Below, piece after piece: positions 3,927 to 62,835 of a DNA stretch of 64,000 bases; the stretch's first letter is position 1; every line of letters begins with the position of its first letter. Below the pieces are notes generated by a model, which worked only from the letters and a program-made list of their open reading frames with translations, was not told where the DNA came from and did no database searches. Made by a program: the position numbers and the translations under genes. Source of the DNA: Mucilaginibacter sp. Bleaf8 (GTDB taxonomy: Bacteria; Bacteroidota; Bacteroidia; Sphingobacteriales; Sphingobacteriaceae); the NCBI RefSeq assembly GCF_018390515.1, contig NZ_JAHBBK010000003.1, forward strand, positions 62,001 to 126,000, given 5' to 3'.

Positions 3927-3950
3927 TCGTTTACAACATACTACCATACA

Positions 3951-5100: not shown

Positions 5101-5110
5101 TGAATTTAAA

Positions 5111-5148
5111 AAAGAAAGAGCGCCATTATAATGGCGCTCTTTCTTTTT
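5111..5148. terminator. Bidirectional terminator between converging genes
   Basis: A near-perfect hairpin with arms AAAGAAAGAGCGCCAT / ATGGCGCTCTTTCTTT, A-rich before and T-rich after, separates the BrkB-family gene from the minus-strand gene at 5165. It can serve both strands. Confidence 0.88.
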
Positions 5149-5164
5149 GTGTATATATTTATAA

Positions 5165-44377: not shown

Positions 44378-46411
44378 TTAATCAAGCTTCATTTTCTGTA
44401 TGCGTACCGCATTTAAAATAGCAAGCAATGCCACCCCCACGTCCGCAATCACCGCTTCCCAAAGATTGGCTACCCCGCCTGCACCCAGTACCAGCACAAT
44501 CACTTTGACGATCATGGCAATGGCGATATTCTGCCACACGACTCGGCTGGTGATCTTGCCTACCTGAATAGCAGTAGTAATTTTAGAAGGCTGATCGTTC
44601 TGGATGACAATATCAGCTGTTTCAATGGTCGCGTCACTACCTAAACCGCCCATTGCAATACCCGCATCAGCCAGGGCAACTACCGGCGCATCATTCACCC
44701 CATCGCCCACAAAGGCGATCCGGCTACCCGCATCTTTAAACCCTTGCACCTTCTGAACTTTCCCATCCGGCAGCAAATCACCAAAGGCTTTATCAATGCC
44801 CAAGGTTTTGGCAACCTTATCGACTACCGCCTGCTTGTCACCTGATAACATGACTGTTTGCAGCTTTAAGTTGTGCATCCGCTCAATGGCTTCTTTTGCA
44901 TCTTCTTTGATTTCGTCAGCAATGGTAATATACCCTGCATACCGGTTATCTACCGCCAGTACCACCACTGTATCTACCAAACTATCAACCGCAGAAGGAT
45001 AGGCCACATCGAACTTCTCCAGCAACTTGGCATTCCCTGCCAGTACGGTTTTCTCGTTAACCGTTCCTTTCAAGCCATGTCCCGAAATTTCCTCGACGTT
45101 TTCCGCTTTTAGGTCGCTCGCCCCGTTGCCTGCATATTCGACTACCGCTTTGGCAATCGGGTGGGTAGAGTTCGCTTCGATCGCGGCGGCGGTTCTTACT
45201 AGTTCATTTTTATCAAAGTTATCCGTCACTACTTCCTGCAATTTGAACACCCCTTTGGTAAGTGTCCCGGTTTTATCCATGATGACGGTATTGATCTTAG
45301 TCATCACGTCCAAAAAGTTAGAACCTTTAAACAGGATGCCGTTCCGTGAGGCAAGCCCGATACCGCCAAAGTAGCCCAGTGGAATGGATACCACCAGCGC
45401 ACAAGGGCAGCTGATGACCAGGAACACCAAAGCCCGATAAAACCACTGGTGAAAGTTATAGGCGTCCACAAAGAAGTAAGGCGCAAAGCAAACCAGTACG
45501 GCCAGGGCAAAAACGATAGGCGTATAGATTTTCGCAAACCGGCTGATAAAAAGTTGTGTTTGTGATTTCCGCGCGGTGGCATCCTGCACCATTTCCAGTA
45601 TCTGGCTCAGCTTACTGTCTTTAAACAGTGCTTTGACCTGCACCTCGCTCACTTTATCCAGGTTAATCATCCCGGCCAGCGCCTTTTCGCCTTTGCGTTT
45701 GGTATCGGGCTTGCTCTCACCGGTCAGGGCTGCGGTATTGAACGTGGCTGCATCCGAATACAGCTCACCATCCAGCGCAACCTTTTCACCCGCTTTCACT
45801 TGTATGATCTCGTCTACCTGAACGGTTTTCGGGTCTACGTCCGTAGCTTTTCCATCACGCATCACCGTTACCTTGTCCGGCCTGATATCCAACAATGCCT
45901 TGATGCTTTTCTTCGCGCGGTTAACGGCTGCATCCTGGAACCACTCGCCAATCGAATAAAATACCATCACGGCCACGCCCTCGCTATATGAACCGATGCT
46001 GAAAGCCCCGACGGTGGCCACGCTCATCAGGAAAAACTCATTAAAGAAATCAAAGTGCTTGGCCTTGCGCCAGGCCATGGCCAAGACGTTATACCCCGAA
46101 AGCCCGAAAGCAATCAAAAAGATAATCAGGTTGATGGGAAATGGAGGCTGAAACTTAAAACCGTATTCCAGCGTTAGCATCACCGCCAGTATCAAAAGCG
46201 CAGTGAGCAGCGGCCAGTGTCTCAGCCAGCTTTCCGCTTCCTCGGGTGCTGCGGTCAGATTCAGCGTTTCATCTTCCTCATCATGGTCATGGCCGCCTGC
46301 TGCATGCTGGTCGGCCTCGTGTGCCCGCTCATTATTCACGGCAGTAGGGCTTTCTTCGGAAGGCTTCCCGGTAAGCTTTTTATCTTCTGCCTGATGTTGG
46401 GTGTTTTCCAT
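44378..46411 (-). CDS. Zn/Cd/Pb-type P1B ATPase
   Basis: A 677-residue heavy-metal ATPase: CPC in ISCPCALVVSIPLGY near residue 333, phosphorylated Asp in DKTGTLT near 376, STHPIAKAVV and GDGVNDAPVVALADAGIAMG. The last helix carries IADVGVALLAILNA with an Asp, the pattern of zinc/cadmium/lead exporters (ZntA). There is no N-terminal HMA domain; the N-terminus is instead His/Asp-rich (ADQHAAGGHDHDEEDE). It is the last gene of the metal operon. Confidence 0.93.
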   Translation of the reverse strand: MENTQHQAEDKKLTGKPSEESPTAVNNERAHEADQHAAGGHDHDEEDETLNLTAAPEEAESWLRHWPLLTALLILAVMLTLEYGFKFQPPFPINLIIFLIAFGLSGYNVLAMAWRKAKHFDFFNEFFLMSVATVGAFSIGSYSEGVAVMVFYSIGEWFQDAAVNRAKKSIKALLDIRPDKVTVMRDGKATDVDPKTVQVDEIIQVKAGEKVALDGELYSDAATFNTAALTGESKPDTKRKGEKALAGMINLDKVSEVQVKALFKDSKLSQILEMVQDATARKSQTQLFISRFAKIYTPIVFALAVLVCFAPYFFVDAYNFHQWFYRALVFLVISCPCALVVSIPLGYFGGIGLASRNGILFKGSNFLDVMTKINTVIMDKTGTLTKGVFKLQEVVTDNFDKNELVRTAAAIEANSTHPIAKAVVEYAGNGASDLKAENVEEISGHGLKGTVNEKTVLAGNAKLLEKFDVAYPSAVDSLVDTVVVLAVDNRYAGYITIADEIKEDAKEAIERMHNLKLQTVMLSGDKQAVVDKVAKTLGIDKAFGDLLPDGKVQKVQGFKDAGSRIAFVGDGVNDAPVVALADAGIAMGGLGSDATIETADIVIQNDQPSKITTAIQVGKITSRVVWQNIAIAMIVKVIVLVLGAGGVANLWEAVIADVGVALLAILNAVRIQKMKLD

Positions 46412-46459
46412 TATTTTGTTTTAAGTAGTTGTGGGTGTAATTTGTTTCGTATCCTGCAA

Positions 46460-47788
46460 TCAGATGAGGCTGCGGATGTCATTATATAATACAAAAGCGA
46501 CAATGCCCATCAGCAGGCAAAAGCCTGTGACCTGGATGAGTTGCAGCGTTTCGGGTTTAATCGGCTTACCTCGTACCCCTTCGATGGCTACCAAAAAAAT
46601 CTGTCCGCCATCCAGAGAAGGTATGGGTAACACATTAATAAAGCCAATGCCGATCGACAGCAGGGCAATCAGGCTCCAAAACCGTTTCCATTCCAGATGC
46701 TCACCAAACATGGTGGCGATCTTGACCGGCCCGTTCAGCGCTTCTTGCATCTTGACCTCACCCGAAAGCATCTGTCCGAAACCTTTTACGTTATCAGATA
46801 TGGAGTTTAAGGTACGCTCCGTACCGGTAGCAATAGAACTGCCAACCGTTACTGGTACCGGCCGGTAAGCTGGCTTTTTGCTGCGTAAACTAAAGCCGAT
46901 ATGACCATCCTTGTCCCAGTGTGCCCTGAGCCGCATGGCCTGACCATCATGAATAACGGTGACATATAATTCACGTGCTTTGTTTTCCTGCAGCTTGACC
47001 TGGAACTCTTCAAAGGAATGTATGGAATCCCCATTTAGGGTGAATATGCCGGTCTGCTTGAATTCCTTGGTACCATACAAATTCAGATTGCTTAAAACCG
47101 AATCGGCTTTATAGTCGGCATTGACCGAAAAGAAATCCGTCATGCCCTGATCAGCAATGGTCTGCATCACTTGTGGTGGTACGGCAATATGCAGGTGCAC
47201 GCGTTCTTTTCCTTTCGACCGCACAACAGATAAAACTGTCTTACCCCTTATCAGGCGGCTGCTGGTAAGTTCTTCTTCGTCCACCATCGGTTCGTCGTCA
47301 ACCGCGATGAGCTGATCGCCCGCCTCGAGGCCAGCGAGCTTACCCAGTTTGCCTGGGTCAATACGGTATTCCTGTCCCAATGAAGCAACATAACCTTTTC
47401 CATACCTGAGCGTCAGACCAGTAAACAGGATGATGGCCAGTAAGACGTTCATCAGAATGCCGCTCAGCATGACAATAATCCGTTGCCATACCGGTTTGTT
47501 ATGGTATCTGCGGTGGGCAAAGGTACCCTCACTGGCTTCTTCATCCTCGTGGTTGGAGAGCATACCCGCCATTTTTACATACCCCCCCAGCGGCAGCCAG
47601 CCTATGCCGTATTCCGTTCCTTTATAATGGAACTTGAATAACCGCAAACCCCACGCATCAAAAAACAGGTAAAACTTCCTGACCCGTATACCGAATGCCT
47701 TCGCCGCCACAAAGTGCCCGAACTCGTGTACCAATACCAGCAGTGACATTCCGGCCACAAATTGTAATATCATGATGAGTAACCGCAT
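46460..47788 (-). CDS. Site-2 (RseP-like) intramembrane metalloprotease
   Basis: A 442-residue polytopic protease: zinc motif HEFGHFVAAKAFGI near residue 21, a PDZ-like domain (KLAGLEAGDQLIAVDDEPM), a second soluble part and the C-terminal NVLPIPSLDGGQIF. Site-2 proteases cut anti-sigma factors. It begins one base after the end of the sigma-factor gene, so a functional link is likely; no anti-sigma gene is visible. Confidence 0.92.
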   Translation of the reverse strand: MRLLIMILQFVAGMSLLVLVHEFGHFVAAKAFGIRVRKFYLFFDAWGLRLFKFHYKGTEYGIGWLPLGGYVKMAGMLSNHEDEEASEGTFAHRRYHNKPVWQRIIVMLSGILMNVLLAIILFTGLTLRYGKGYVASLGQEYRIDPGKLGKLAGLEAGDQLIAVDDEPMVDEEELTSSRLIRGKTVLSVVRSKGKERVHLHIAVPPQVMQTIADQGMTDFFSVNADYKADSVLSNLNLYGTKEFKQTGIFTLNGDSIHSFEEFQVKLQENKARELYVTVIHDGQAMRLRAHWDKDGHIGFSLRSKKPAYRPVPVTVGSSIATGTERTLNSISDNVKGFGQMLSGEVKMQEALNGPVKIATMFGEHLEWKRFWSLIALLSIGIGFINVLPIPSLDGGQIFLVAIEGVRGKPIKPETLQLIQVTGFCLLMGIVAFVLYNDIRSLI

Positions 47789-47789
47789 A

Positions 47790-48212
47790 TTATTTCTGAC
47801 TTTGGCTTAAATTGGACTGATAGGCCGCTTTCACTTCATTCACCGCTATATTGAGCATCCCTGCAAACTCGCGAAAACTAAAAGATTGCGGTTTGAGCAG
47901 TAAGATCAAACGAGGCAGCCAGGCGCTTTTCGGCTGCGCCTTAAAATGCTGCTGAATGCTTTCCGCGGCCAGGCCGTAAACGACCTGTTCCAAATCGTCT
48001 GTATCATTCAAGCCGCCCATATGTCGGTAGAATCTGACAAACACATCCTGTACAAGTTCATCAGTATCCTCATGGTCTAAGCCCTGATGACGGATAAAAA
48101 AGTAGATGCGCTGCTGATATCGGGCCAGCAGCTGACTGAATGCCTGCTGGCGTGTTTCGGCTTTTAACAAGCCTTCGAGTATGATTTGATTATTGATGAT
48201 TATCGTTTCCAT
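47790..48212 (-). CDS. Small ECF-like sigma factor in the metal operon
   Basis: From the ATG at 48212 this is a 140-residue protein with a region-2 match (YQQRIYFFIRHQGLDHEDTD, ELVQDVFVRFYRHMGGL) and a diverged region-4-like HTH at the end (FREFAGMLNIAVNEVKAAYQ). It is shorter than most ECF sigmas. It lies between czcB and the site-2 protease gene. Confidence 0.75.
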   Translation of the reverse strand: METIIINNQIILEGLLKAETRQQAFSQLLARYQQRIYFFIRHQGLDHEDTDELVQDVFVRFYRHMGGLNDTDDLEQVVYGLAAESIQQHFKAQPKSAWLPRLILLLKPQSFSFREFAGMLNIAVNEVKAAYQSNLSQSQK

Positions 48213-48265
48213 GATCTTTTTTCTCCTTTGCAGGCACTGAGGCCCTGCACTTACCATTTTATTGG

Positions 48266-49516
48266 CTATTCGTCCTCGTCACCTGTGGCGTTTTCCGATG
48301 ACAGAATGTAAAACGCTCCTTTGGTGACAATCTTCATATCTTTCGGCAAACCCTTGACCAATTTGATTTCGGTATACCCCAGATCGCTGACACCGGTTAC
48401 GACCTCGGCTTTTTCAAATACATAAGCTTTGCCGGATGAATTATCTTCATCTTTTTCGCCTTTGGCTTTAGAAGCAGCTTGGTCAGCCACGCGAGTCAGG
48501 TAGTAGATATATTCTTTGCCACCTGATTTGACGATGGCTTCAGTAGGAACCGCTGTGGCCTCCTGCCTGCCCACATCAATTAACGCGGATACATACATGC
48601 CCTGAATGAGGTTGTTCTTCGTCGCCTGCTCAATCACAGCATGGGCAATAATGGCTTTGCTTTCATTTTCAAAAGATTGGTTCACCCCATAAATTTTACC
48701 GGTGATCTCGCGGTTATTCTGGTTGGTTAGGATAAAGCTTACCTGCTGGCCTGCTTTCACCTTGAACAGATCTTTTTCATAGACCACCAGATCACAATGC
48801 ACCTTGGAGTTATCGATAATGTTCATCAGCGCCCTTGCCGGTTCTGCATAGGAGCCGGTCTGAATTACAATCTTGCCGATGGTGCCGCTGATCGGGGCAT
48901 ATACCGGAATCTGCGTGATAAACCTGCCATGCGCTGCACTTTCCGGGCTAACGCCTACCTGCCGCAGCTGGCGGCTCAGGGCAGATACTTTAGCCTGCTC
49001 GCTGCGTAATGCCGTTTGCGACTGCTCATAGATTTTGCCCGTACCGGCATTGGCCTCGTTCAGTTCCCGCTGGCGTTCGTATTCTTTGGTGGCATAGGCC
49101 AGATTGGATAAAGCCGACATATAATCCTGCTGCAACTGAATGAGCTGGTTATTTTCAATGGTGGCTAGTTTTTGCCCTTTAGCCACGTGCTGACCCTCCA
49201 GTACGAATACCTGATTAACTACGCCGCCCATGAGCAGGGTTACTTCGGCCTTATTCTGTGGTGGTACTTCGAGCTGGCCGCTGGCCTTGACCACCGATTT
49301 CAGGTTTTTTTGTTCAACGCTGCCCATACGAATACCTACCGCGTCTAGCTGGTTTTGACTCAGCGTAACCCCTTCATTCGGGGCTTTCGGCTTTTCCGTT
49401 TGGGCTTCTTCTTTTTCCCCAGTTTTGGGGTGCGGCGAGCAGGATGCCAGTAGTACCGATGCGGCCCATAAGCAGGCAAAAGCTGTTTTATATAAATTTA
49501 AATGGAATCGTTTCAT
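48266..49516 (-). CDS. CzcB/CusB-type periplasmic adaptor of metal RND pump
   Basis: A 416-residue lipoprotein (lipobox LLASC) with lipoyl halves (VEQKNLKSVVKASGQLEVP, APISGTIGKIVIQTGSYAE), a coiled-coil hairpin and a C-terminal barrel region. Its start overlaps the end of the CzcA-CzcC fusion gene by 4 bases. It links the inner-membrane pump to the outer-membrane channel. Confidence 0.92.
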   Translation of the reverse strand: MKRFHLNLYKTAFACLWAASVLLASCSPHPKTGEKEEAQTEKPKAPNEGVTLSQNQLDAVGIRMGSVEQKNLKSVVKASGQLEVPPQNKAEVTLLMGGVVNQVFVLEGQHVAKGQKLATIENNQLIQLQQDYMSALSNLAYATKEYERQRELNEANAGTGKIYEQSQTALRSEQAKVSALSRQLRQVGVSPESAAHGRFITQIPVYAPISGTIGKIVIQTGSYAEPARALMNIIDNSKVHCDLVVYEKDLFKVKAGQQVSFILTNQNNREITGKIYGVNQSFENESKAIIAHAVIEQATKNNLIQGMYVSALIDVGRQEATAVPTEAIVKSGGKEYIYYLTRVADQAASKAKGEKDEDNSSGKAYVFEKAEVVTGVSDLGYTEIKLVKGLPKDMKIVTKGAFYILSSENATGDEDE

Positions 49517-52500
49517 TTTTGGTTTCCTGGTGCGGTTAAGTAATGAAGTTGAATAACGGTTTGGTTGTAGTCGCGCAGGGCAGCCAGGTAACTCAGGCGA
49601 ATATTCATTGCTTGGGTCATGTTCTGAATGAACTCCACATAACCGATCTCGCCTTTGCTGTAGGCAAACTGGGCAATCCGGGTCTGTTCATCTGCTTGCT
49701 TTAATCCGGCTTCCCCATAGTAGCGGAGCGCCTCATCATATTTGGCTAATTCCTGCAAGCCCTGGTTATATTGCTTACTGAGTAATCGGGCTGCATTCTG
49801 CTGCTCTGCCTGAGCGATCTGCTGGCCGACTTGCGCTGCTTTCACCCTGCTTTTCTGCGCCCCAAAGAACAGGGGAACGGCCAGACCAACTTCAATACCG
49901 CCAATTCGGGTGCCCGGATAATAATTTCGGTTAATGTTAGCCGGGTTGAATGCTGCGACCAAGAGCTGCTGCCGGTAACCCAAAGTAAGGTCAGGCAGAT
50001 ACCTGTTTTTCTCGGCTTTCAGTTGTGCACCGGCCAGGGCACTTCGCTGCTCATAATAAGCCACCTGCGGATGCCTGCTGATCGCTGCACTGTCCTCTAC
50101 CGAAAAGGTTAATTTCTCCAAAGGAGCTTCGAATATAGAAGGCAGATAATCTACGCTTAAAAGCTGCTGTAATTCCTGCCTGGCGATCAGTACATCGGCT
50201 TCGGCCTGCTTTTTCGTTACCCCGATTTCCCGGTAGGCATTTACGGCGGACAGTTGTTCAAGGTAAGAAGTCTCCCCGGTTTTGTAGCGCAAGGCAGCCC
50301 GCTCGGAAAAGCGCTTATATAAGCTGTCCTGGCTGCTGAGCTGCCGGAGCTTGTTTTGGGCATACAGCAGCTGGTAATAAGCGGCTTTCACCTCTTTGAC
50401 CAGTTCGTTTTCGGTAATGGCTCTTGCGCTTTCGCTCAATGCGGTTTGTGCTTTGAGCACTTTACCTTGCGCACGATAGACGGTTGGAAAAGCAAAGCTT
50501 TGGGTAATGCCCAGACTATTGTCGATGTTACCGCCCGATGTCGGATCCTGTGTCAGCGTGATATCGGTTTTGGCAGGGTCAAAGGCCGTTCCCTGCAAGG
50601 CTTTGTTCTGGCTCACTTCGAGCGCTGACTTTCTCAGATTCGGATTATTACGGATAGCCGTTTGGATGCTTTCCGCTATAGTAAGCGGCCCGGTATCCTG
50701 TGCCTTTAAGGTCTGGCTAGCAAATATACCGCAAGTCAGCAGCAATAAGATGGTTACTACTTTGGGTGATAATGGCATCGCCTTATCGGGTTTAGGGGGA
50801 TGATTTTTAGTGAATAGAATATAGAGTACTGGGAGTACGAGTAAGGTCAGCAGCGTAGCAGAGATGAGCCCGCCAATGACTACCGTTGCCAGCGGCCTTT
50901 GCACTTCGGCACCCGCGGTGGTGGATATCGCCATGGGTAAAAAGCCCAGTGAGGCGACCGATGCGGTCATCATGACCGGCCTTAAGCGGACGTGCGTTCC
51001 TTTTTTGACACGCTCCACGATATCCCAGATGCCTTCGGCCTGAAGCTGGTTAAAGTACCCGATCAGTACGATGCCATTGAGTACGGCAACGCCAAAGAGC
51101 GCAATGAAGCCTACACCTGCACTGATACTGAACGGCATGCCTCGCAGATACAAAGCCGCTACACCGCCTATGGCAGATAAAGGCACTGCGGAGAAAATCA
51201 GCAGCGTCTCTCTTACGGAACGAAAAGTAAAAAACAGCAGTACCAAAATCAGCAGCAGGGCAACCGGTACGGCAACCTCCAAACGGCCTTTGGCTTCCTG
51301 CAGGTTCTGGAACTGGCCGCCATAGGTGGTATAATATCCGGCAGGCATTTTAAGCCTTTGGTTTAACAGTTGTTGAATATCCTTCACGGTACTTTCTACG
51401 TCACGGCCTCTCACGTTAAAGCCAACGTAAATCCTACGCTTGCCGTCCTCCCGGCTGATCTGTGATGGTGCGTCCTCAATTTTGATGGAAGCCACCTGGC
51501 TCAGCGGCACCTTACTGCCGCTCGGCAATGGGATATACAGGTTTTCAATGTTCACGATGTCGGAACGGAGTTCCCGGCTTAAGCGCAGAACGATTTCAAA
51601 CCGCTTTTCGCCCTCGAACACCACGCCAGCCACTCTGCCGGCAAAGGCGGTGCTTAAAGCGGTATTCACATCTTCAATGTTCAGCCCGTACTGGGCAATT
51701 TTATGACGGTCGTAGGTAACGGCCACCTGCGGCAGGCCGCTGACCTTTTCTACGATAGGTTCGCTTACACCCTTCACACCGGCAATCAGTTTGGCTGTCT
51801 TTTCTGCCTGCGCGGAAAGCACGTCCAGGTCGTCGCCAAAAATCTTGATGGCAACATCCTGACGAATACCGGTCATTAGCTCGTTGAAGCGCATCTGCAT
51901 GGGCTGGGTAACCTCCACGTTAATCCCGGGAATATTTTTTAGCGTCTGCTCAATCTTTTCCATCATTTCCGCGCGGTCACTGGCCGACGTCCACTCGTCT
52001 TTCGGCTTCATGGAAAGCATCATATCGCCCCGCTCAAAGGGCATGGGGTCGGTCGGTACTTCCGCGCTGCCGATGCGGGTTACGGCCTGTTTGATCTCCG
52101 GGAACTTCTGCTTTAAAAGCTTTTCTGCTTTGCCGAAGGTTTCCACCACCTGGCTGAGCGAAGTGCCCTGCATCATGGCGATCTCGACCGTCAGATCGCC
52201 TTCTTCCAGCGTAGGGATAAACTCACCGCCCATTTTAGAAAATGCCCAGATGGCAATGGCTAATAATACGGCAGAAAGAAAAACGGTCAGCTTCTTGAAT
52301 TTCAGAACGGCGTTCAAAACAGGCGTGTACATGCGGTGTAAACCGTCTATGATACGGTCGGATATATTGCGCTTATGGTGTGTTTTCTTGCTCAGGAACA
52401 AGGCGCTCGCCATCGGCACATAAGTCAGCGAAAGGATAAAAGCACCCAGGATAGCAAAAGCTACCGTTTCTGCCATTGGCCGGAACATCTTGCCCTCAAT

Positions 52501-53910
52501 GCCCACCAGGGCAAACAGCGGCAGGTAGACGATCAGGATGATGATTTCGCCAAAAGCCGCGCTGTGCCGGATTTGGGATGCGGCATTATAGACTTCTTTA
52601 TCCATTTCCGCCTGGTTCAAGACTTCCTTATCCGCAAAGCGGTTTGATTCGGTAATGCGGTGAATCATCGCTTCGACGATGATCACGGCACCGTCGACAA
52701 TCAAGCCAAAGTCAATCGCGCCCAGGCTCATCAGGTTGCCGGATACGCCAAACAGGTACATGAGCGTTACGGCAAAGAGCATCGCCAGCGGGATAACGGA
52801 AGCCACAACCAAACCAGCTCGCCAGTTGCCCAGCAGCAAAACCAGTACAAACACGACAATCAGGCCGCCCTCAATCAGGTTGCGTTCGACGGTGCCGATA
52901 GCTCTGCCCACCAGTTCGGTACGGTCAATAAACGGTTCAATGACGACACCTTCCGGCAAAGATTTTTGCACCTGTGCCATGCGCTCTTTTACGCGCTTGA
53001 TGACCTCGTTGAAGTTTTCACCTTTGAGCATCAGGGCAACGCCCGCCACGACTTCGCCCTGGCCGTTACGGGTAACGGCACCATAACGATTCGCACTACC
53101 ATACTGAACTTTGGCAATATCCCCGATCACAACGGGTGCATCCTCCCGGTTCTTAACCACAATATGTTCCAGATCGTCCAGCGTTTGAACCTGCCCCAAT
53201 CCCCTGATAAAATAAGCATTGCTGCGCTGCTCGATATAAGAGCCGCCCGTATTCTGGTTGTTCTTTTCCAGGGCGGTATAGATGTCGCTGATCGTAATGT
53301 TCAGGCTGTTCAGCCTTTCGTTGTCGATCGCAATCTCGTATTGCTTGACGTAGCCGCCCCAGCCACTGATCTCGGCAATGCCTGGCGTTCCGGCCAGCTG
53401 CCTGCGGACAATCCAGTCCTGCATGGTGCGCAGGTCGGTAGCACTGTACTTATGCGCATAACCTGGCTTGGTATGAATGACATACTGATAAATCTCACCC
53501 AAACCGGTCGTGATGGGTGCCAACGTGGGTTCCCCGGTATCTTTAGGTATCTGCGCCTCGGCTTCTTTCAGCCCTTCGCTGATCTGCTGACGCGCCCAGT
53601 AAATATCGGCATCATCTTCAAAAACAACGGTGATGACCGAAAGCCCGGAACGGGAAATGGACCGCTTTTCAATAACTTTCGGCACGTTGGCAATGGCCAG
53701 CTCGATAGGCGCGGTAATATACTGCTCCACTTCCTGGGCACCCAAGGTAGGTGCCTGGGTAATGATCTGCACCTGGTTATTGGTGATATCGGGCTGGGCA
53801 TCGATGGGTAGCCGCGCAAGGGAATAAATACCTCCGGCTACCAGTAGGCATATAAATGCGCCTACCAACAGCTTATTGCTGATGGAGAACGCAATGATCT
53901 TATCAAACAT
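49513..53910 (-). CDS. CzcA/CusA heavy-metal RND pump fused to TolC-type channel
   Basis: A 1465-residue protein. Residues 1-1040 are an HME-RND pump (NKLLVGAFICLLVAGGIYSL; helix-4 motif DFGLIVDGAVIIVE, the class exporting divalent cations; final LLVLPVLYILF). From Met1045 a TolC/CzcC domain follows, beginning with a signal-peptide-like stretch (KVVTILLLLTCGIFASQTLKA, here residues about 1050-1070) and then LTIAESIQTAIRNNPNL. Such fusions are known in Bacteroidetes. The internal signal-like segment suggests the two parts are separated by signal peptidase. It follows the DUF6660 gene. Confidence 0.93.
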   Translation of the reverse strand: MFDKIIAFSISNKLLVGAFICLLVAGGIYSLARLPIDAQPDITNNQVQIITQAPTLGAQEVEQYITAPIELAIANVPKVIEKRSISRSGLSVITVVFEDDADIYWARQQISEGLKEAEAQIPKDTGEPTLAPITTGLGEIYQYVIHTKPGYAHKYSATDLRTMQDWIVRRQLAGTPGIAEISGWGGYVKQYEIAIDNERLNSLNITISDIYTALEKNNQNTGGSYIEQRSNAYFIRGLGQVQTLDDLEHIVVKNREDAPVVIGDIAKVQYGSANRYGAVTRNGQGEVVAGVALMLKGENFNEVIKRVKERMAQVQKSLPEGVVIEPFIDRTELVGRAIGTVERNLIEGGLIVVFVLVLLLGNWRAGLVVASVIPLAMLFAVTLMYLFGVSGNLMSLGAIDFGLIVDGAVIIVEAMIHRITESNRFADKEVLNQAEMDKEVYNAASQIRHSAAFGEIIILIVYLPLFALVGIEGKMFRPMAETVAFAILGAFILSLTYVPMASALFLSKKTHHKRNISDRIIDGLHRMYTPVLNAVLKFKKLTVFLSAVLLAIAIWAFSKMGGEFIPTLEEGDLTVEIAMMQGTSLSQVVETFGKAEKLLKQKFPEIKQAVTRIGSAEVPTDPMPFERGDMMLSMKPKDEWTSASDRAEMMEKIEQTLKNIPGINVEVTQPMQMRFNELMTGIRQDVAIKIFGDDLDVLSAQAEKTAKLIAGVKGVSEPIVEKVSGLPQVAVTYDRHKIAQYGLNIEDVNTALSTAFAGRVAGVVFEGEKRFEIVLRLSRELRSDIVNIENLYIPLPSGSKVPLSQVASIKIEDAPSQISREDGKRRIYVGFNVRGRDVESTVKDIQQLLNQRLKMPAGYYTTYGGQFQNLQEAKGRLEVAVPVALLLILVLLFFTFRSVRETLLIFSAVPLSAIGGVAALYLRGMPFSISAGVGFIALFGVAVLNGIVLIGYFNQLQAEGIWDIVERVKKGTHVRLRPVMMTASVASLGFLPMAISTTAGAEVQRPLATVVIGGLISATLLTLLVLPVLYILFTKNHPPKPDKAMPLSPKVVTILLLLTCGIFASQTLKAQDTGPLTIAESIQTAIRNNPNLRKSALEVSQNKALQGTAFDPAKTDITLTQDPTSGGNIDNSLGITQSFAFPTVYRAQGKVLKAQTALSESARAITENELVKEVKAAYYQLLYAQNKLRQLSSQDSLYKRFSERAALRYKTGETSYLEQLSAVNAYREIGVTKKQAEADVLIARQELQQLLSVDYLPSIFEAPLEKLTFSVEDSAAISRHPQVAYYEQRSALAGAQLKAEKNRYLPDLTLGYRQQLLVAAFNPANINRNYYPGTRIGGIEVGLAVPLFFGAQKSRVKAAQVGQQIAQAEQQNAARLLSKQYNQGLQELAKYDEALRYYGEAGLKQADEQTRIAQFAYSKGEIGYVEFIQNMTQAMNIRLSYLAALRDYNQTVIQLHYLTAPGNQK

Positions 53911-55640: not shown

Positions 55641-56036
55641 ATGTTATTCACAGGAAGATTGACCGGAAAAGCAGAAGTTAAAACGGTTAAAGACAAATCT
55701 CTTATCAATTTCACCGTAGCCATTAACGAGAAATGGAAGAACAAAGCGGGCGAAAAAAAGGAAAAAACCGTATTCGTGGATTGCACCTACTGGCGCAATA
55801 CAGGCCTTGCCGAATACCTCAGCAAAGGTGCAGTAGTCGAGATTTTAGGATGGGTAGAAGCGCAGGCCTACCAAAGCCCAACCAAGGGTTTGCAGTCAAG
55901 GCTGATTTGTACCTGCGACACCATTAAGCTGTTTAGCCCGATGGCTAAAAGCGCAGAGCCTGCCAACAGTAAGGAAATGCAGGCAGTAACCGCAGGAACA
56001 AGTACAAATGCAGACGATGACGATCTGCCATTTTAA
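55641..56036 (+). CDS. ssb: Single-stranded DNA-binding protein
   Basis: A 131-residue OB-fold SSB: FTGRLTGKAEVKTVKDKSLI, NFTVAINEKWK, TVFVDCTYWRN, AVVEILGWVEAQAYQ, and the acidic C-terminal tip DDDDLPF that contacts partner proteins. It is a plasmid/ICE-type copy heading the DUF932-PRTRC block. Confidence 0.93.
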   Translation: MLFTGRLTGKAEVKTVKDKSLINFTVAINEKWKNKAGEKKEKTVFVDCTYWRNTGLAEYLSKGAVVEILGWVEAQAYQSPTKGLQSRLICTCDTIKLFSPMAKSAEPANSKEMQAVTAGTSTNADDDDLPF

Positions 56037-56077
56037 ACTAATCCATTCATTTTTTAACGAAAGCAAAGCTTAAAATC

Positions 56078-57142
56078 ATGGCACACCATTTAAATTTCAA
56101 CGAAGCCCGTCAGGAATACAGCTTTTTCAGCGTCAAAGAACGGGCATGGCACGGCTTGGGCAAAATCGTAGAACACTACCCTACCAGCGCAGAGGCGATC
56201 AAATTCGCCGGACTGGACTACACCGTAGAAAAGCGCCCTTTATTTACCATCGACAGCAACACGCATTGCTGGAACAACGAAGAAGCCGTTCCAGATATAG
56301 CCGTTCCGAATTATTTTGCGACCATCCGCAGCGATACCGAGCAGGTTTTAGGGGTAGTCGGTAAAGATTATGAAGTTGTACAGAATGTAAACGCATTCGA
56401 GTTTTTCGATGCGATTGTCGGCGGTGGCGATGGTGTCCTGTATGAAACCGCAGGCGCATTAGGTAAAGGCGAACGCATATTCATTACCGCTAAACTGCCT
56501 GGCTATATCCGTGTCGGCAAAGACGATTTCATCGAAAAGTACCTGTTCCTGACCACCTCTCACGATGGTTTCGGCAGCATTACCGCAGCCTTTACCCCGG
56601 TAAGAATTGTCTGTAACAATACGCTTAACGCGGCCATGCGTAACCACACAAATGCCGTTAAAATCCGCCATACCGCATCGGCTGGCGACCGGCTGAAGCA
56701 GGCGCATACCCTGATGGGTATCAGTAACACAATGGCTGATGAAATGCAGGACATCTTTAACCATTGGTCTACCATCCGCATTACGGATAAGGAGGTGAAG
56801 AAATTGATACAGGTGGCGATGGTGCCCAATAAAGAGGTGCTCAATAACCTGATGGCCGGAAAAACCGATGAATTGTCAACGACCTACACCAATATGGTTG
56901 ACAAGGTTTATGAGTATGCCATGAGCAGTCCCACGCAGCAAATGGAAACGACTGCGGGAACCTTATTCGGGGCTTATAATTCGGTCACCGGATATTTCCA
57001 GAATGTACGGAACTACAAGGACGGTGAAGCCAAATTCAAATCAATTACGGAGGGAACAGCCAAACAAAGAGCGCAAACCGCCTTTGACCTTTGCCTGAAT
57101 TTCTCCAAACAGGTAAACGATAATTTCCTGCAATTTAATTAA
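56078..57142 (+). CDS. DUF932 protein of plasmid/phage type
   Basis: A 354-residue DUF932 protein: ERAWHGLGKIVEHYPTSAEA, TEQVLGVVGKDYEVVQNVNA, SHDGFGSITAAFTPVRIVCN and NTLNAAMRN. These occur on plasmids, phages and integrative elements; function unknown. Position between ssb and the PRTRC genes is usual. Confidence 0.9.
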   Translation: MAHHLNFNEARQEYSFFSVKERAWHGLGKIVEHYPTSAEAIKFAGLDYTVEKRPLFTIDSNTHCWNNEEAVPDIAVPNYFATIRSDTEQVLGVVGKDYEVVQNVNAFEFFDAIVGGGDGVLYETAGALGKGERIFITAKLPGYIRVGKDDFIEKYLFLTTSHDGFGSITAAFTPVRIVCNNTLNAAMRNHTNAVKIRHTASAGDRLKQAHTLMGISNTMADEMQDIFNHWSTIRITDKEVKKLIQVAMVPNKEVLNNLMAGKTDELSTTYTNMVDKVYEYAMSSPTQQMETTAGTLFGAYNSVTGYFQNVRNYKDGEAKFKSITEGTAKQRAQTAFDLCLNFSKQVNDNFLQFN

Positions 57143-57185
57143 ACCTACCAAAGGGGGAGTAATCCCCCTTTCTTAAAAAAGCAAC

Positions 57186-57713
57186 ATGACACGTTCAAAT
57201 CTTCATATCACTTTAAGCAACGGCGAGCCTATTCGATGTGTTGCCGACAGCAGCAGCGCACCCGAACAGGGCTACATTGTGGAGCAGCTTTTATTACCGT
57301 TACTATCCCTTAAAAATGCGGAAAAGGAACTAACGCTCCTTCAGGAACATTGCACCATGCAGGAACAGCGGAGCAACGCCACCTATCGTTATGAAATTAA
57401 TTTACCCGCACAAAACATTACCCTTTACGAGGAAAATTATATTTCCGCTAAGGGCGCATTCAAAAGGGGCTTAGACCTGACCGGGCGCTACCTGTCTTAT
57501 CTCAAGAAGATAGAAAGCGAAGCCGAAAGAAATACCAAACGGAAATTTAAGCACCTGACCAATCAAGAACTTATTGCACGGGCAAACAGCCTGCCTTACT
57601 TCAAACAGGAAGAAGAAAGTACGGAACTTACCCGCAGGAGCCTGCTATCCAATGGTGCATTCCTCTACCACAGGAAAGGCAATACCCTCCTAATCCTAAA
57701 AGACGAACAGTAA
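57186..57713 (+). CDS. Hypothetical protein in the PRTRC block
   Basis: A 175-residue protein, hydrophilic, with a Lys/Glu-rich helical middle (SYLKKIESEAERNTKRKFK). No motif recognised. It sits between DUF932 and PRTRC-E with short spacers, so it is probably part of the operon. Confidence 0.8.
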   Translation: MTRSNLHITLSNGEPIRCVADSSSAPEQGYIVEQLLLPLLSLKNAEKELTLLQEHCTMQEQRSNATYRYEINLPAQNITLYEENYISAKGAFKRGLDLTGRYLSYLKKIESEAERNTKRKFKHLTNQELIARANSLPYFKQEEESTELTRRSLLSNGAFLYHRKGNTLLILKDEQ

Positions 57714-57737
57714 TTATCCACCTTAAGAACCTTCAAA

Positions 57738-58328
57738 ATGACAACGAACTTTTTTCAAAACATAGCCAGCCTGAACCTGAAAGGGGTTTGGAAACTGGCC
57801 ATTACCACCGACGACAAAGGCCATTTTATCGTATCTCAATTATTTCATACCACCTGCGGAGATAAGGCCGTCAACCTTATTGTACCCCTGACCCTTTCCG
57901 GTACTGCCAAAGATTTGGACGAGGGCTTTTTTGACAAGGTAACTGAACCGACCCTCAAAAGCGCAGGCTTACAGGTCAATATGGAAGCCCATTTAAAAAG
58001 CGTTGAACAGGCTAAAGCCGCCTCCAAACTGGAGCAGGATAAAAAGAACCGGGAAAAGGCGCAAGCAACTGCAACCGCTGCCAAAAATATGGATGATGTG
58101 GAATTGCCTGAACCCAAAATCAGCAAAGAGGAAAAGAAGAAAATCTATGAGGAAGCGATGGAGCGGGTTACGGAACTGATTAAAAAGTTGAAATTTTCTG
58201 AGGCCCTGACCAAACTGCCAAGTATCGAGGAACACCCCAACAAGGAAAATGAACTGAAAAAGAAACGGCAATTTCTGGAACAGCAGGCCAACCTCTACGA
58301 AAAAGCACTATTAAACTTTAAAGCTTAA
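57738..58328 (+). CDS. PRTRC system protein E
   Basis: A 196-residue protein starting MTTNFFQNIASLNLKGVWKL, with VSQLFHTTCGDKAVNLIVPL and LSGTAKDLDEGFF, followed by a Lys/Glu-rich coiled helix (LEQDKKNREKAQATATA). It matches PRTRC-E in sequence style and in its place directly before PRTRC-C. Biochemical function unknown. Confidence 0.82.
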   Translation: MTTNFFQNIASLNLKGVWKLAITTDDKGHFIVSQLFHTTCGDKAVNLIVPLTLSGTAKDLDEGFFDKVTEPTLKSAGLQVNMEAHLKSVEQAKAASKLEQDKKNREKAQATATAAKNMDDVELPEPKISKEEKKKIYEEAMERVTELIKKLKFSEALTKLPSIEEHPNKENELKKKRQFLEQQANLYEKALLNFKA

Positions 58329-58339
58329 TCCTTACCACT

Positions 58340-58558
58340 ATGATACAGACAAAATTATTACCCCGGGTTTTTATCCATACGGAGAACGGGCAAAAAATAC
58401 GCCTCACCGACCCGAACGAGGACTTCAGCCCCGAAGCGGTTTGCAATCATTACGCCAACCTCTATGCCATCCTGACCACCGCCAAAATTGTCGGGCCCGA
58501 GTTCAAAGACGATTTCAGGGAATACGAATTTGTATCGACCATCGGCACGAAAGGTTAA
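58340..58558 (+). CDS. PRTRC system protein C, ubiquitin-like
   Basis: A 72-residue protein: LPRVFIHTENGQKIRLTDP, then EAVCNHYANLYAILTTAKIV, and the C-terminal end EYEFVSTIGTKG. The family is the prokaryotic ubiquitin-like group found in PRTRC clusters. This copy ends in a free Gly, as needed for E1-type activation. Neighbours include E2-like (B) and E1-like (ThiF) genes. Confidence 0.85.
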   Translation: MIQTKLLPRVFIHTENGQKIRLTDPNEDFSPEAVCNHYANLYAILTTAKIVGPEFKDDFREYEFVSTIGTKG

Positions 58559-58560
58559 CC

Positions 58561-58734
58561 ATGAAAAAGCAAAACGAAGACAGACTCATACAGAAACGAA
58601 ACCCACCGCAATGGAAACTACATCAGCAAATCGCACACTTTACCAAAGACCTCGACAGGCTGCCCGATGCGCAGGAAGTCCGGCAAAATCCGCCACGCTC
58701 CGCGCCCCGGCACCTGCTGCCGATGGTTTTTTAA
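58561..58734 (+). CDS. Possible 57-residue ORF between PRTRC-C and PRTRC-F
   Basis: It starts two bases after the PRTRC-C stop, with AAAGG eight bases upstream, and runs MKKQNEDRLIQKRNPPQWKL to HLLPMVF. Its codons (GAC CTC GAC CTG GAT GCG GAA GTC) look like those of the neighbouring genes, whereas the overlapping frame from PRTRC-F uses rarer Arg codons. This supports a real small gene and a later start for PRTRC-F. No family recognised. Confidence 0.5.
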   Translation: MKKQNEDRLIQKRNPPQWKLHQQIAHFTKDLDRLPDAQEVRQNPPRSAPRHLLPMVF

Positions 58735-58751
58735 GGCATAGCTTTACACCG

Positions 58752-59711
58752 ATGTACGCTCCTGCGCCTGAGTTGCCCAGTCGTTCGGCCACAGAACGGG
58801 ATTTTTTTAAATCCCGTTCTTACCTCGGGAACCATTACGGGTTGGAACTGACTGATTTCCGTTCCTTGCCGTATCCCTATAATGTGCTGATGGCTGAAAG
58901 GGAATTGCATTGCAAACTGCGGGTGAAAGACAAGTACCGCCACCTGACCATTACAGCGCAGGAGAACGGTGAAGTATGCCTGACCATCGCAGAAACATTC
59001 GACGAGGATTTTTGCCTGTACTATATTCCTGTCATGCCCATTTACCAGTTATGGCAAAATGAAGCGCATGTACCCTGCGCCGAACTGCTGACCGCCGTTT
59101 GCGCTTACCTCTATGCCGGGGCGGGTATCAGCTATTACCGGGACGAAGACACGTATATGTATTCCAATTACGAGGTCATGGAAGATTGGATAAACGATGA
59201 TTGGAACGATGGCGAGGAAGATGAATACGCCCTTGAAAAGGCAGACCTTGAAAATGCGAAGCTACAGGGTGATTTTATGCAAGCTAAAATGATGGAGCCC
59301 CGTTTTCGCCAAAGTTTGGACTGCCTGATAACCCATTTCAACGCTGTAAGTGAATTTGAAAAGGATTGCCTTGCCGTTGCGCACACTTGTCTGCAATTAG
59401 GAAAGGATTTCCCTGACGCTAACCTGTTTCAGCATGCCAGTTTGCAGGATTACGAGGTGGAGGATTATCAAGACAATTACGTAGGCATGCAGGAATATAT
59501 CTCCTTTATCGGTAGCGTGAACGACCACTTGAGTGAACGTTTGAAAAGTATGGTCAACGATGATTTTAATGAGCGCGCCCGTTATCAGGAACCCGAAACA
59601 ATTACCTGTTTTAACAGAGTCCAGTCCGCCTATACCGATGAATTAGCCTATGAGCAGCGGGCGTTCGGACTGATAGACGATTTATGTACCCTTTTATACC
59701 GTAAGCCATGA
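58752..59711 (+). CDS. PRTRC system protein F
   Basis: From the ATG at 58752 this is a 319-residue protein: LGNHYGLELTDFRSLPYPYN, VMPIYQLWQNEAHVPCAELL and an acidic middle (DWINDDWNDGEEDEYALEKA). Starts at 58488 or 58611 are in frame, but the former overlaps PRTRC-C and the latter overlaps the small ORF at 58561. Its place between C and B fits PRTRC-F. Its stop overlaps the next start by 4 bases. Function unknown. Confidence 0.78.
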   Translation: MYAPAPELPSRSATERDFFKSRSYLGNHYGLELTDFRSLPYPYNVLMAERELHCKLRVKDKYRHLTITAQENGEVCLTIAETFDEDFCLYYIPVMPIYQLWQNEAHVPCAELLTAVCAYLYAGAGISYYRDEDTYMYSNYEVMEDWINDDWNDGEEDEYALEKADLENAKLQGDFMQAKMMEPRFRQSLDCLITHFNAVSEFEKDCLAVAHTCLQLGKDFPDANLFQHASLQDYEVEDYQDNYVGMQEYISFIGSVNDHLSERLKSMVNDDFNERARYQEPETITCFNRVQSAYTDELAYEQRAFGLIDDLCTLLYRKP

Positions 59712-60427
59712 AAGAATTAACCGGCACGTTTGGCAATCTATACGAACCTGTAAAAGCTTTAATTATCCTGCGCAAGACAGAAGAACAACACCCATCCGAT
59801 TACTACATCGAAAGTTACGACATGGACGACAAAGGCTGCCCCATCAACGGGCATCCCTTATCCGTCAGGGAAAGCAACAGCTTAGCGAAAGCCTTGCAGT
59901 CGGGTGAAAAGAAAGCACAGGGATTTTTAACCCCTAAAGGCTTAATGCCGGCCAACGTTTTGCACCTCAACAGCGGTGCGGAGGGTTACGTGGTATGGTA
60001 TACGCCGCCGCAACCCGTTAAATTATTGTTTACCGAAAATTTAGGCATTCCCCCGGGAATGGCCCATATCCCCGCATTGGTTTGGAAAGCCGGGAAAGGC
60101 TGCTTGCAGGTATTCGCAGTAACCGTATCAAAATTCAAGGAAACCACACCGCTGTATTATGCGCCTTTTTTCAACCTGTATAAGGACGGCAGGGTATGCA
60201 TGGGTAACGTGCGCATCCGCATCCCGGACGATTGTGGTCTTGAACAATTTATGAAACTGTGGCAGGCGTACTTTTTTAACAGCTATTTCAGCCACCTGAT
60301 CGGAGGCCATGAACCTGTTAAAGGCAATATCGTGCAGTTATGGCAACAACTGACGGCCACCGCAGAACCGTTCCCGACCGAAGTACTGAATCCGACCCCA
60401 TACCAACTCAAAAACTTAATCCGATGA
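59708..60427 (+). CDS. PRTRC system protein B, E2-like
   Basis: A 239-residue protein of the prokaryotic E2-like D family (PRTRC-B). The segment APFFNLYKDGRVCMGNVRI around Cys164 resembles the active-site flap of ubiquitin-conjugating enzymes (PNiyxxGxxCL), making Cys164 the likely thioester residue. It overlaps PRTRC-F before it and ThiF after it, both by ATGA. Function in a conjugation pathway is inferred from family and context. Confidence 0.85.
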   Translation: MKELTGTFGNLYEPVKALIILRKTEEQHPSDYYIESYDMDDKGCPINGHPLSVRESNSLAKALQSGEKKAQGFLTPKGLMPANVLHLNSGAEGYVVWYTPPQPVKLLFTENLGIPPGMAHIPALVWKAGKGCLQVFAVTVSKFKETTPLYYAPFFNLYKDGRVCMGNVRIRIPDDCGLEQFMKLWQAYFFNSYFSHLIGGHEPVKGNIVQLWQQLTATAEPFPTEVLNPTPYQLKNLIR

Positions 60428-61230
60428 ATACTTTAACCGCCGTACATTTCACCGATAGTTATTTAGTCAGCCCTACCAATCCGATTACTGTTAATCTCAT
60501 CGGCGCAGGGGGAACGGGAAGTCAAATGCTGACGAGTCTTGCCCGGATGAACCAGGCCATGCTTGCATTGGATTATCCCGGCCTGATGGTTACCGTTTAT
60601 GACGATGATACCGTCAGCCCTGCCAACCTCGGCAGGCAACTTTTTGCGGAGGCAGAAATAGGCTTACCTAAAAGTGTCGCCCTTGTTAACCGCATCAACC
60701 GTTTTTTCGGAACGAACTGGAAAGCGGTCGCCAAACGGTACGATACTGAAATCCTTCGCTACCTGCCCGACTACGGCAAGGCCAACCTGTATATTACCTG
60801 TGTGGATCATGCCGCCGCGCGATTTGAGATTGCTGAAATGTTAGGGCAATACCGGTCAGGTTATCGCTATGACCGTAACAGGCCGCTTTACTGGATGGAT
60901 TTTGGCAACAGTAAGGATACGGGGCAGGTGGTACTATCCACTATCGGAGAACTGAAACAACCCGCCTCCGAAAAGTTCGCTCCGGTGGGTAACCTGCCTT
61001 TTGTGACGGAGACTTTTAAAGAATTACTGGCAACCGCGGACGCCACCGACGATACCCCAAGCTGTTCTTTAGCGGAAGCCCTGACCAAACAGGACTTGTT
61101 TATCAATTCCACCTTAGCCAATATGGGCGCTTCGCTCTTGTGGCAATTGTTCCGGGAAGGGATTTTAATGAACCGGGGGTTCTTTCTGAACCTGCACGAT
61201 TTCAGGACACAGCCTATCAAATTAACTTAA
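60424..61230 (+). CDS. PRTRC system ThiF/E1-like protein
   Basis: A 268-residue E1-like adenylating enzyme: nucleotide-binding NLIGAGGTGSQ at about 24-34, VYDDDTVSPANLGRQLF with Asp and Arg71, LYITCVDHAAARF, and TPSCSLAEALTKQD with Cys214. The ATG at 60424, overlapping the PRTRC-B stop, is used; an upstream start would run inside that gene. It would adenylate the C-terminal Gly of the ubiquitin-like PRTRC-C. Confidence 0.9.
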   Translation: MNTLTAVHFTDSYLVSPTNPITVNLIGAGGTGSQMLTSLARMNQAMLALDYPGLMVTVYDDDTVSPANLGRQLFAEAEIGLPKSVALVNRINRFFGTNWKAVAKRYDTEILRYLPDYGKANLYITCVDHAAARFEIAEMLGQYRSGYRYDRNRPLYWMDFGNSKDTGQVVLSTIGELKQPASEKFAPVGNLPFVTETFKELLATADATDDTPSCSLAEALTKQDLFINSTLANMGASLLWQLFREGILMNRGFFLNLHDFRTQPIKLT

Positions 61231-61240
61231 CGAAATCGCT

Positions 61241-61420
61241 ATGGAAATTACAGATTTGAAAGGTCAGCGCATTAACGTGCCGGATTTGGAATTGGCGATT
61301 TTACAGGCCGACGATTACCGGCATTACCGTCATGCCGATCCGGCTTATGCCGCTTCCGATCAAAAATTACAGGCCTATTGGGAAGACATGTACCAAAAGC
61401 TGCTGGCGCTGCGGGCGTGA
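61241..61420 (+). CDS. 59-residue hypothetical protein after ThiF
   Basis: The ORF starts 10 bases after the ThiF stop: MEITDLKGQRINVPDLELAI, then DDYRHYRHADPAYAASDQ and YWEDMYQKLLALRA. Codons and spacing fit the operon. No family recognised; probably a small conserved companion of PRTRC clusters. Confidence 0.7.
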   Translation: MEITDLKGQRINVPDLELAILQADDYRHYRHADPAYAASDQKLQAYWEDMYQKLLALRA

Positions 61421-61657: not shown

Positions 61658-61960
61658 ATGGAAGATCCGAAAGTATTTGATGTGGAGCTGAATGGACAGT
61701 CCGTCCGGGTGAGCGAGCATACCATCAAGTTTGCTCGTGTTTTTCATTTGGTCTATCCCGGCAGTCCTCCTCCTTTAAATATTACGATAGCAGAAAATAC
61801 GGACGGGGTGAAATTCTGGACGTCCATACCCGAAGGGCGGCAGGAAGAAGCGGAACTTGCAGGCAAGGTAATTGCTGCGTATATTCGTGAATACAGGAGA
61901 AATCAGTTATGTGCTACTACAACGGACAAAAAGTTACCCGCGCCGAATCTATTCGGTTGA
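61658..61960 (+). CDS. Hypothetical protein, 100 residues
   Basis: From the ATG at 61658: MEDPKVFDVELNGQSVRVSE, RVFHLVYPGSPPPLNITIAE, then a helical end (AELAGKVIAAYIREYRRNQ). A TTG at 61631 is an alternative start. Its last 52 bases overlap the SRAP gene in another frame, so they are likely cotranscribed and coupled. Function unknown. Confidence 0.7.
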   Translation: MEDPKVFDVELNGQSVRVSEHTIKFARVFHLVYPGSPPPLNITIAENTDGVKFWTSIPEGRQEEAELAGKVIAAYIREYRRNQLCATTTDKKLPAPNLFG

Positions 61961-62835
61961 AAGGCATTGAAAAAGCGATCCGGAATTACAAGTTCCTGAA
62001 TGTTGGGGTACATAACGGGTTCAATTATGCACCCTGCGCCATCCTGATCCCTTCTGCAAACGGTAAAGACTTCGACATCGTACAGGCGGAATGGGGCTAT
62101 GTACCGGGCTTTGTGAAAACCCGGACAGAAGCCAATATCTTCCGGGCGAAATACACGACGCTGAACTTTAAATCGGAAAACCTATTTGTGAAAGAAAATG
62201 GCGAGCGCTCCATGTGGGCAGACGCCGCCAAGAACCGCCGATGCCTGGTTTTATCGACGGGTATCGTCGAATCCCGCCATGTGCCGAAAATCGGCAAAAA
62301 GGGCCAGGAACTGAAGGAAACCATCAAGTATCCGTATCAGGTAAGCTTAAAGGGCCAGGAGTATTTCTTTCTGCCGGGGCTGTACAACGAGTGGCTGGAT
62401 CCGGAAATCAGCCAGTTCGTAAACACCGTCGCTTTTGCGATCACCGAGGCTAATGCGGTCATGTCGCAGATCCACAATTCCAAGAAAAGAATGCCGTCCA
62501 TATTGACAGAAGAACTGGCATGGGAGTGGCTGATGGAAAAGCCAGGTGAAGAGCGTCTCTCCCAAATTGCCCGTACCCAGATCCCATCCAGATTGCTGGA
62601 TTTTTGTACGGTCGACCGGAATTATCGCAGGACGCTGGAAGCTACACCATTGGAATACCCGGAACTTGCACGTATCGATACGAGTTTTGTGGACACGGAA
62701 GAATTGCAGTTCAATCATTGGCCGGCAGCATCCGAAGCAGCCGCACAGGAGACAGAAGAATTGGTAACGGTTGAAGATGCTGAAAGAACAGCTTATAACC
62801 GTGAAATAGGTCGCCAGGGTGATCTGTTCAGCTAA
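61909..62835 (+). CDS. SRAP-family (HMCES/YedK-like) abasic-site protein
   Basis: A 308-residue SOS response-associated peptidase-like protein. Cys2 after the start Met is the residue that links to abasic sites in ssDNA; CLVLSTGIVESRHVPK gives the Glu and MSQIHNSKKRMPSIL the His of the site. It protects single-stranded DNA during repair or transfer. The C-terminal 50 residues are acidic and extra. It ends convergent with DinB, overlapping by 8 bases. Confidence 0.9.
   Translation: MCYYNGQKVTRAESIRLKGIEKAIRNYKFLNVGVHNGFNYAPCAILIPSANGKDFDIVQAEWGYVPGFVKTRTEANIFRAKYTTLNFKSENLFVKENGERSMWADAAKNRRCLVLSTGIVESRHVPKIGKKGQELKETIKYPYQVSLKGQEYFFLPGLYNEWLDPEISQFVNTVAFAITEANAVMSQIHNSKKRMPSILTEELAWEWLMEKPGEERLSQIARTQIPSRLLDFCTVDRNYRRTLEATPLEYPELARIDTSFVDTEELQFNHWPAASEAAAQETEELVTVEDAERTAYNREIGRQGDLFS

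Follow-up and report, generated by a model that had tools for sequence, protein, structure and literature searches.

The closest described relative of the system considered here is bacterial operon type 6d, defined by Iyer, Burroughs and Aravind in 2006. It encodes a small ubiquitin-like protein whose C-terminal Gly is conserved, an E2-like protein that has a Cys followed further on by a His, and, in addition, an E1, an alpha-helical protein and a JAB protein (PMC1779556). We have analyzed an operon of this type, a PRTRC cassette, in a 64,000-nucleotide stretch of the soil bacterium Mucilaginibacter sp. Bleaf8 (contig NZ_JAHBBK010000003.1, positions 62,001 to 126,000), which is called the window in what follows. 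The cassette shares with operon type 6d the terminal-Gly protein C, the Cys and downstream His of B, ThiF, E, and the gene order E-C-F-B-ThiF. It differs in having no JAB protein (PRTRC-A), in a C that appears to be already mature, and in an 'F' that is not recognizable as PRTRC-F, and its small gene S and -1 junction are not part of the 2006 description. A second point of comparison is type II CBASS (cyclic-oligonucleotide-based anti-phage signaling system), whose Cap2/Cap3 pair the predicted E1-E2 chemistry of the cassette would resemble in acting on one C-terminal Gly. Unlike the cassette in the window, CBASS has no ubiquitin-like C, its E1 and E2 are fused in Cap2, its conjugated protein is cGAS, and its Cap3 is a JAB deconjugase.

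The ubiquitin-like reading itself goes back to 2006, when it was predicted for this operon type (PMC1779556). New are the JAB-free, born-mature form, a rule that ties JAB to the C-terminal tail of C, the S gene, and a conserved -1 frame switch. We consider it probable that the window encodes a JAB-less ubiquitin-like conjugation cassette with a born-mature C, S, and a frameshifted S-F product. We would say with slightly less assurance that two broader statements hold together: that a -1 frameshift joins S to F across Bacteroidota and Burkholderiales plasmid-type cassettes, and that C exists in two processing states, born mature where JAB is missing and, where JAB is present, extended by a tail or by a fused S that has to be cut by it. 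The genes of the cassette, all on the + strand, are listed here in coordinates of the window.

57738..58328, +, PRTRC-E (PF19556, E value 5e-44)
58340..58558, +, PRTRC-C, ubiquitin-like, 72 residues, ending in STIGTKG before the stop (PF14454, E value 1e-20; TIGR03738)
58561..58734, +, S, 57 residues, ending in LLPMVF before the stop; unannotated, no family match
58726..58734, +, candidate -1 frameshift site GTT_TTT_TAA, with a T_TT.T tetramer abutting the S stop
58731..59711, +, positional 'F' in the -1 frame of S, 326 residues counted from the junction; no match to a PRTRC-F model
59708..60427, +, PRTRC-B, E2-like (Prok-E2_D; PF14460, E value 5e-34), with N156, Cys164, Gly166, and His196
60424..61230, +, PRTRC-ThiF, E1-like (TIGR03736), with D60, N68, R71, K83, D128, R133, and Cys214

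ThiF passes its family model TIGR03736 with 253.8 bits (cut-off 144.75), and C passes TIGR03738 with 52.6 bits (cut-off 45.95). B exceeds the PF14460 cut-off (118 versus 25) and remains under that of TIGR03737 (108.8 versus 131.45 bits); E likewise passes PF19556 (150.6 bits versus 26) and falls just short of TIGR03741 (37.3 versus 37.95). The closest named relatives of ThiF come from Mucilaginibacter and are 85-88% identical, and 61 of 251 genomes from the host's family have a ThiF above the family cut-off, some in several copies. The cassette is a real PRTRC set that is probably borne by a mobile or accessory element.

We compared key residues in 187 cassettes with C, B, and ThiF that were taken from genomes, viral contigs, and named plasmids. 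Gly72 of C is conserved in 185 of these, and the two exceptions are a C that runs into the F frame and one that terminates in Ala. Cys164 of B, which lies within NLYKDGRVCMGN, is present in all 167 aligned sequences, with N156 kept in 165/168 and H196 in 154/168. E2 enzymes have an HPN-x7-C spacing around their catalytic Cys. The N156-x4-G-x2-C164 spacing of B, with its Asn and Cys eight residues apart, is the same, so the Cys of B can be read as part of an E2 active-site pattern, downstream of which comes His196. In ThiF, all seven of C214, D60, N68, R71, K83, D128, and R133 are identical in 175/175 sequences. Its G-x-GG-x-G adenylation motif and the invariant D60, N68, R71, K83, and D128 align to Uba1, and in profile comparisons the D-x-D, N, R, K, and D line up with the structures of Uba1, Uba5, ThiF, MoeB, and Cap2. 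As aligned, the conservation of these residues in C, B, and ThiF exceeds chance by far and extends over several phyla.

A preliminary description of this DNA had proposed that the genes form a ubiquitin-like conjugation set whose key residues look intact. Its coordinates, gene calls, C terminus, Cys164, and Cys214 are all correct, as are the overlapping starts of F/B and B/ThiF, both of which are ATGA, and its expectation that Gly72 and Cys164 would be conserved across cassettes was borne out by the alignments. The set itself is well supported by sequence, but it had already been anticipated in 2006. Cys164 is indeed invariant, and the flap-like segment in which the description placed it is better expressed as the E2 pattern with its downstream His.

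The AlphaFold model of B has a predicted local distance difference test score of 91, and its closest solved folds are mostly E2s with low scores; most of the 50 matches listed in the VIA comparison are E2s (best Z 4.9, root-mean-square deviation 4.4 over 119). The model of C has a beta-beta-alpha-beta-beta order; its seven C-terminal residues lie beyond the strands, and confidence is low for the final three. Its Foldseek list consists mostly of ubiquitins and ubiquitin-like proteins (best E value 0.047, none at E<=0.001), and its VIA matches mix protein G, PB1, and ubiquitins with a best Z of 4.9. We describe this model as beta-grasp-like and count it in favor of conjugation. Two observations weigh on the other side. 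The B model has no Foldseek match at E<=0.001 and its likeness to the E2 fold is weak, and Cys214 of ThiF, although invariant, is just a candidate for an E1 catalytic Cys. Profile searches of PDB sequences with C and B returned nothing useful.

The main chemical rival to conjugation is that C is a sulfur carrier of the ThiS/MoaD type, whose C terminus ThiF would convert to a thiocarboxylate for use in a reaction on tRNA or a small molecule. ThiF does match both eukaryotic E1s and the bacterial proteins ThiF and MoeB, and a free terminal Gly with JAB tail removal has been proposed for sulfur carriers too (PMC1779556). However, an E2-like protein adjoins ThiF in nearly all cassettes, and family scans of the cassette detect no sulfur-transfer enzyme or rhodanese domain. 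The sulfur-carrier alternative is disfavored by the invariant Cys of B, and we judge it quite unlikely.

The cassette in the window has no PRTRC-A gene, and there is no Prok-JAB match in the whole 5.03-Mb host genome. PRTRC-A is also absent from all 251 genomes of the host's family in a search that found the Cupriavidus and Xanthomonas controls. Across the comparison set, C stops exactly at the Gly in 96 of 97 cassettes without A and continues for 3-97 residues past it in 84 of 90 cassettes with A. When cassettes are thinned at 80% identity, these two classes number 74 and 24 (96 and 84 in full), and the exceptions stay at one without A and six with A. The one JAB-less C with a 'tail' (L046) runs into the F frame, likely through a frameshift, and was set aside. 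The JAMM motif is kept in 89 of 91 A matches, and the remaining two are fragments. The tails are mutually unrelated in sequence and occur in several separate JAB-bearing lineages. They comprise 3-5 residues in most Burkholderiales plasmid-type cassettes and 9-13 residues in some Caballeronia. In Burkholderiales prophages the tail is an extra domain of 60-97 residues, and in other cassettes it is a fused S. The JAB-less lineages whose C ends at Gly include Bacteroidota, Pseudomonas, Vibrio, Photobacterium, Aeromonas, Marinobacter, Alteromonas, Deinococcus, Massilia, and Desulfovibrio.

There is good support in these comparisons for a C that would act through an exposed Gly and an A that would strip its tails. 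It is also conceivable that the rule is an accident of ancestry, with one lineage that has JAB and tails and another that has neither. Two clades, Bacteroidota and Burkholderiales, dominate the counts, and parsimony requires at least five changes for A and at least seven for the tail, which are few independent changes. None of the independent pairs opposes the rule, but they are too few to reach significance. These points, together with the six JAB-bearing cassettes in which C also stops at Gly, count against the processing rule. Ancestry alone, on the other hand, fits poorly with unrelated tails (3-5 residues, 13 residues, the 60-97-residue domain, fused S) in separate JAB-bearing lineages, and with JAB-less lineages that all end at Gly, including Vibrionaceae, Massilia, and Deinococcus, with no pair going the wrong way. 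We regard the accident of ancestry as unlikely. On the processing rule, the C of the window is, as judged from its reading frame, born mature. Because it is encoded ending at Gly, no processing peptidase would be needed in this cassette, and because the host has no JAB deconjugase, the mark may be irremovable by the JAB route.

In one Cupriavidus basilensis cassette (L112), PRTRC-A is split across two frames and C is tailless, and close relatives have an intact A and a five-residue tail. This cassette is a possible case of recent loss of both. JAB-bearing PRTRC cassettes also occur in Burkholderiales prophage-like contigs (L189-L216 from IMG/VR, many of about 38-48 kb) and in phage BgVeeders33.

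Directly 3' of C, 167 of the 187 cassettes have a small open reading frame of 38-80 residues, which we call S. The ratio of nonsynonymous to synonymous substitution rates (dN/dS) in its own frame is 0.08-0.42 over 17 scorable pairs, and S is thus a conserved gene under purifying selection. It has no match in Pfam, NCBIfam, PHROG, or PADLOC. In-frame C-S fusions occur only in cassettes with JAB; for example, the free-standing S encoded by Trinickia L102 aligns along its entire length with the C tail of L093 (E value 6e-12). Eukaryotic ubiquitin-ribosomal protein fusions are an analogue of these C-S fusions, which would be cut after the Gly; in the window, C and S are separate and JAB is missing. 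The idea that every long C tail is a fused S was rejected, as matches to the S profile are confined to L093, L218, L210, L111, L035, and, weakly, L220. The tails of Burkholderiales prophage C proteins are a different domain, which ends DEEVxFINALHARY... and is followed by a separate S gene. In viral contigs L180-L184, the small open reading frame after C is Lys-rich at its end rather than ending in MVF and has a short -1 open reading frame downstream; this is possibly a different arrangement.

F lies in the -1 frame relative to S in 164 of 167 cassettes. We anchored dN/dS at the S stop in three groups of cassettes. Upstream of the stop, the S frame has values of 0.22, 0.35, and 0.15 and the F frame 1.16, 1.56, and 1.68. 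In the first 12 codons past the stop, the F frame has 0.15, 0.21, and 0.10 and the other frames 1.3-3.7. Among disjoint pairs, the S frame wins upstream in 20/23 and the F frame downstream in 22/23. The S stop is the exact point at which coding passes from S to the -1 frame. An F start farther upstream, inside S, was considered and rejected, since that frame is unconstrained there (dN/dS 1.2-1.7). In the record of Cupriavidus metallidurans plasmid pMOL28 (L034), S at 5337-5552 is absent from the PLSDB/RefSeq gene table, and the annotated PRTRC-F at 5441-6580 starts inside S in the frame without coding constraint.

How the ribosome enters the F frame appears to depend on the type of cassette. 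One possibility is that S and F are separate proteins and that F re-initiates at or just past the S stop, either at CTG or at a downstream ATG, with no frameshift. In Burkholderiales prophage types, an ATG of F does overlap the S stop (ATGA in 32/34). The junctions of Bacteroidota and plasmid-type cassettes have no such ATG and instead read T TTY TGA or TAA. Outside the prophage type, the F-frame junction codon is CTG in 64 of 96 unique junctions, which re-initiation could use, and the window has an ATG at 58752, 18 nucleotides past the S stop, that is a possible separate F start. In 30 unique junctions, however, this codon is CTA or TTA, neither of them a start codon, and the F frame immediately after it is nevertheless conserved (dN/dS 0.11-0.27). 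Likewise, where the F frame opens with a stretch of 20 or more codons free of ATG, GTG, and TTG, that stretch is nonetheless under constraint (0.20 and 0.17).

Re-initiation also leaves the sequence ahead of the stop unexplained. T_TTY is present in the window and in 83/96 unique junctions. T is the third base of the codon preceding the final Phe much more frequently than expected from codon usage: in the plasmid type this holds for 24/24 Ile codons (27% by usage), and in Bacteroidota for 31/33 Val (24%) and 13/13 Leu codons (18%). The T ahead of TTY seems strongly selected, with the reservation that these statistics are indicative only because the sequences are related. In E. coli, T_TT.C and T_TT.T are the most shift-prone tetramers after A_AA.G, but only with a strong stimulator (PMC4066793). 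A natural S-F fusion exists as well. In M. psychrotolerans, a small deletion puts S and F in one 381-residue open frame; the natural in-frame S-F (L061/L045) is an indirect sign of a fusion product. Finally, the NCBI PRTRC_F model sets in at the S/F junction of Cupriavidus, where the annotated F has its residue 36.

Taken together, the frame constraint, the start-less junctions, the selection on T_TTY, the natural fusion, and the start of the PRTRC_F model favor a programmed -1 frameshift as the likely source of an S-F protein, which would have 383 residues in the window. Three observations argue against it: 13/96 junctions have no T_TTY, there is no upstream Shine-Dalgarno-like stimulator and RNA folding at the site is weak (z -0.7 and -0.2), and the ATG at 58752 offers the window copy another start. 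Re-initiation accounts for just part of the data, and we find it rather unlikely as the whole explanation. Transcriptional slippage is probably unlikely too, with a T run just 4-6 long. The predicted frameshift resembles that of the IS1/IS3-family genes (Z_ZZN) in its T_TTY tetramer, its -1 direction, and its conservation over many copies. It differs from them in that the slip abuts a stop codon, has no clear stimulator, and is in a non-transposase gene.

The F of the window is so named by position. It has no match to TIGR03742 or PF14456, and an attempt to link it to PRTRC-F/alpha-hel2 by profile comparison failed (probability 3.5%). The preliminary description had applied the F label without this limit and had misread the 5' end of the gene, where S overlaps the open frame. 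The other genes that it named stand, and it overlooked that JAB is missing, that S exists, and that S and F meet at a -1 junction.

A mechanism can be proposed from these elements. By homology, ThiF (E1) very likely activates C, and it would do so by adenylating the free Gly72. C would then pass to ThiF, probably to Cys214, and next to Cys164 of B (E2); this transfer to B is likely. B would hand C to a target, which we infer is likely a protein. The substrates that had been suggested earlier (E, F, SSB, and DUF932) have no support. A ribosome that slips -1 at T_TTT before the S stop would yield S plus S-F at a set ratio as additional products of the same transcript, and S-F may act as a scaffold or target adaptor.

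Hundreds of plasmids and elements carry PRTRC cassettes, multidrug-resistance megaplasmids among them, and the ubiquitin-like role of these cassettes has been a prediction since 2006. The JAB/tail rule links the Gly of C to processing and indicates which of the cassettes are open to study without a protease. The JAB-free form could be a simple test bed, as its C should be usable as encoded and its adducts should escape JAB cleavage. S and the -1 junction also imply that the annotated F start is wrong in the Cupriavidus pMOL28 record, as it probably is in many more. Expression work built on annotation of this kind would therefore have missed the real product.

Four further genes extend the cassette into one co-directional run from 55641 to 61420 with short gaps.

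55641..56036, +, SSB (PF00436, E value 7e-13), which begins the run
56078..57142, +, DUF932/TIGR03299 plasmid-like protein (PF06067, E value 1e-67; TIGR03299)
57186..57713, +, 175-residue protein between DUF932 and PRTRC-E, no family match above the cut-off
61241..61420, +, 59-residue open reading frame right behind ThiF, no family match

These neighbors bear on whether the cassette could be an anti-phage defense system of the CBASS or Bil kind. Cap2 is a precedent for bacterial E1-E2 conjugation through one C-terminal Gly (PMC10097602), and ThiF weakly matches PADLOC E1-E2 models. No other cassette protein matches defense models, though, and the cassette adjoins SSB and DUF932 here and ParB, helicases, and dnaN on large plasmids in Proteobacteria. 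With some cassettes residing in prophage contigs as well, a defense role strikes us as very unlikely.

Just upstream, at 44378-53910 of the window, are heavy-metal efflux genes for a P-type ATPase, an HlyD/CusB protein, and a CusA-type RND protein, the last fused with an outer-membrane factor domain in a single 1465-residue open reading frame. A Sphingomonas plasmid (L221) likewise has heavy-metal efflux genes in the vicinity of its PRTRC cassette. Downstream of the cassette is a group of DNA-damage genes, comprising SRAP (HMCES-like), a DnaE-type polymerase, an ImuB/DinB-like protein, and an AlkB-like oxygenase, with positions 61909-62835 in the window and 3319-8021 and 9894-10481 in L236.

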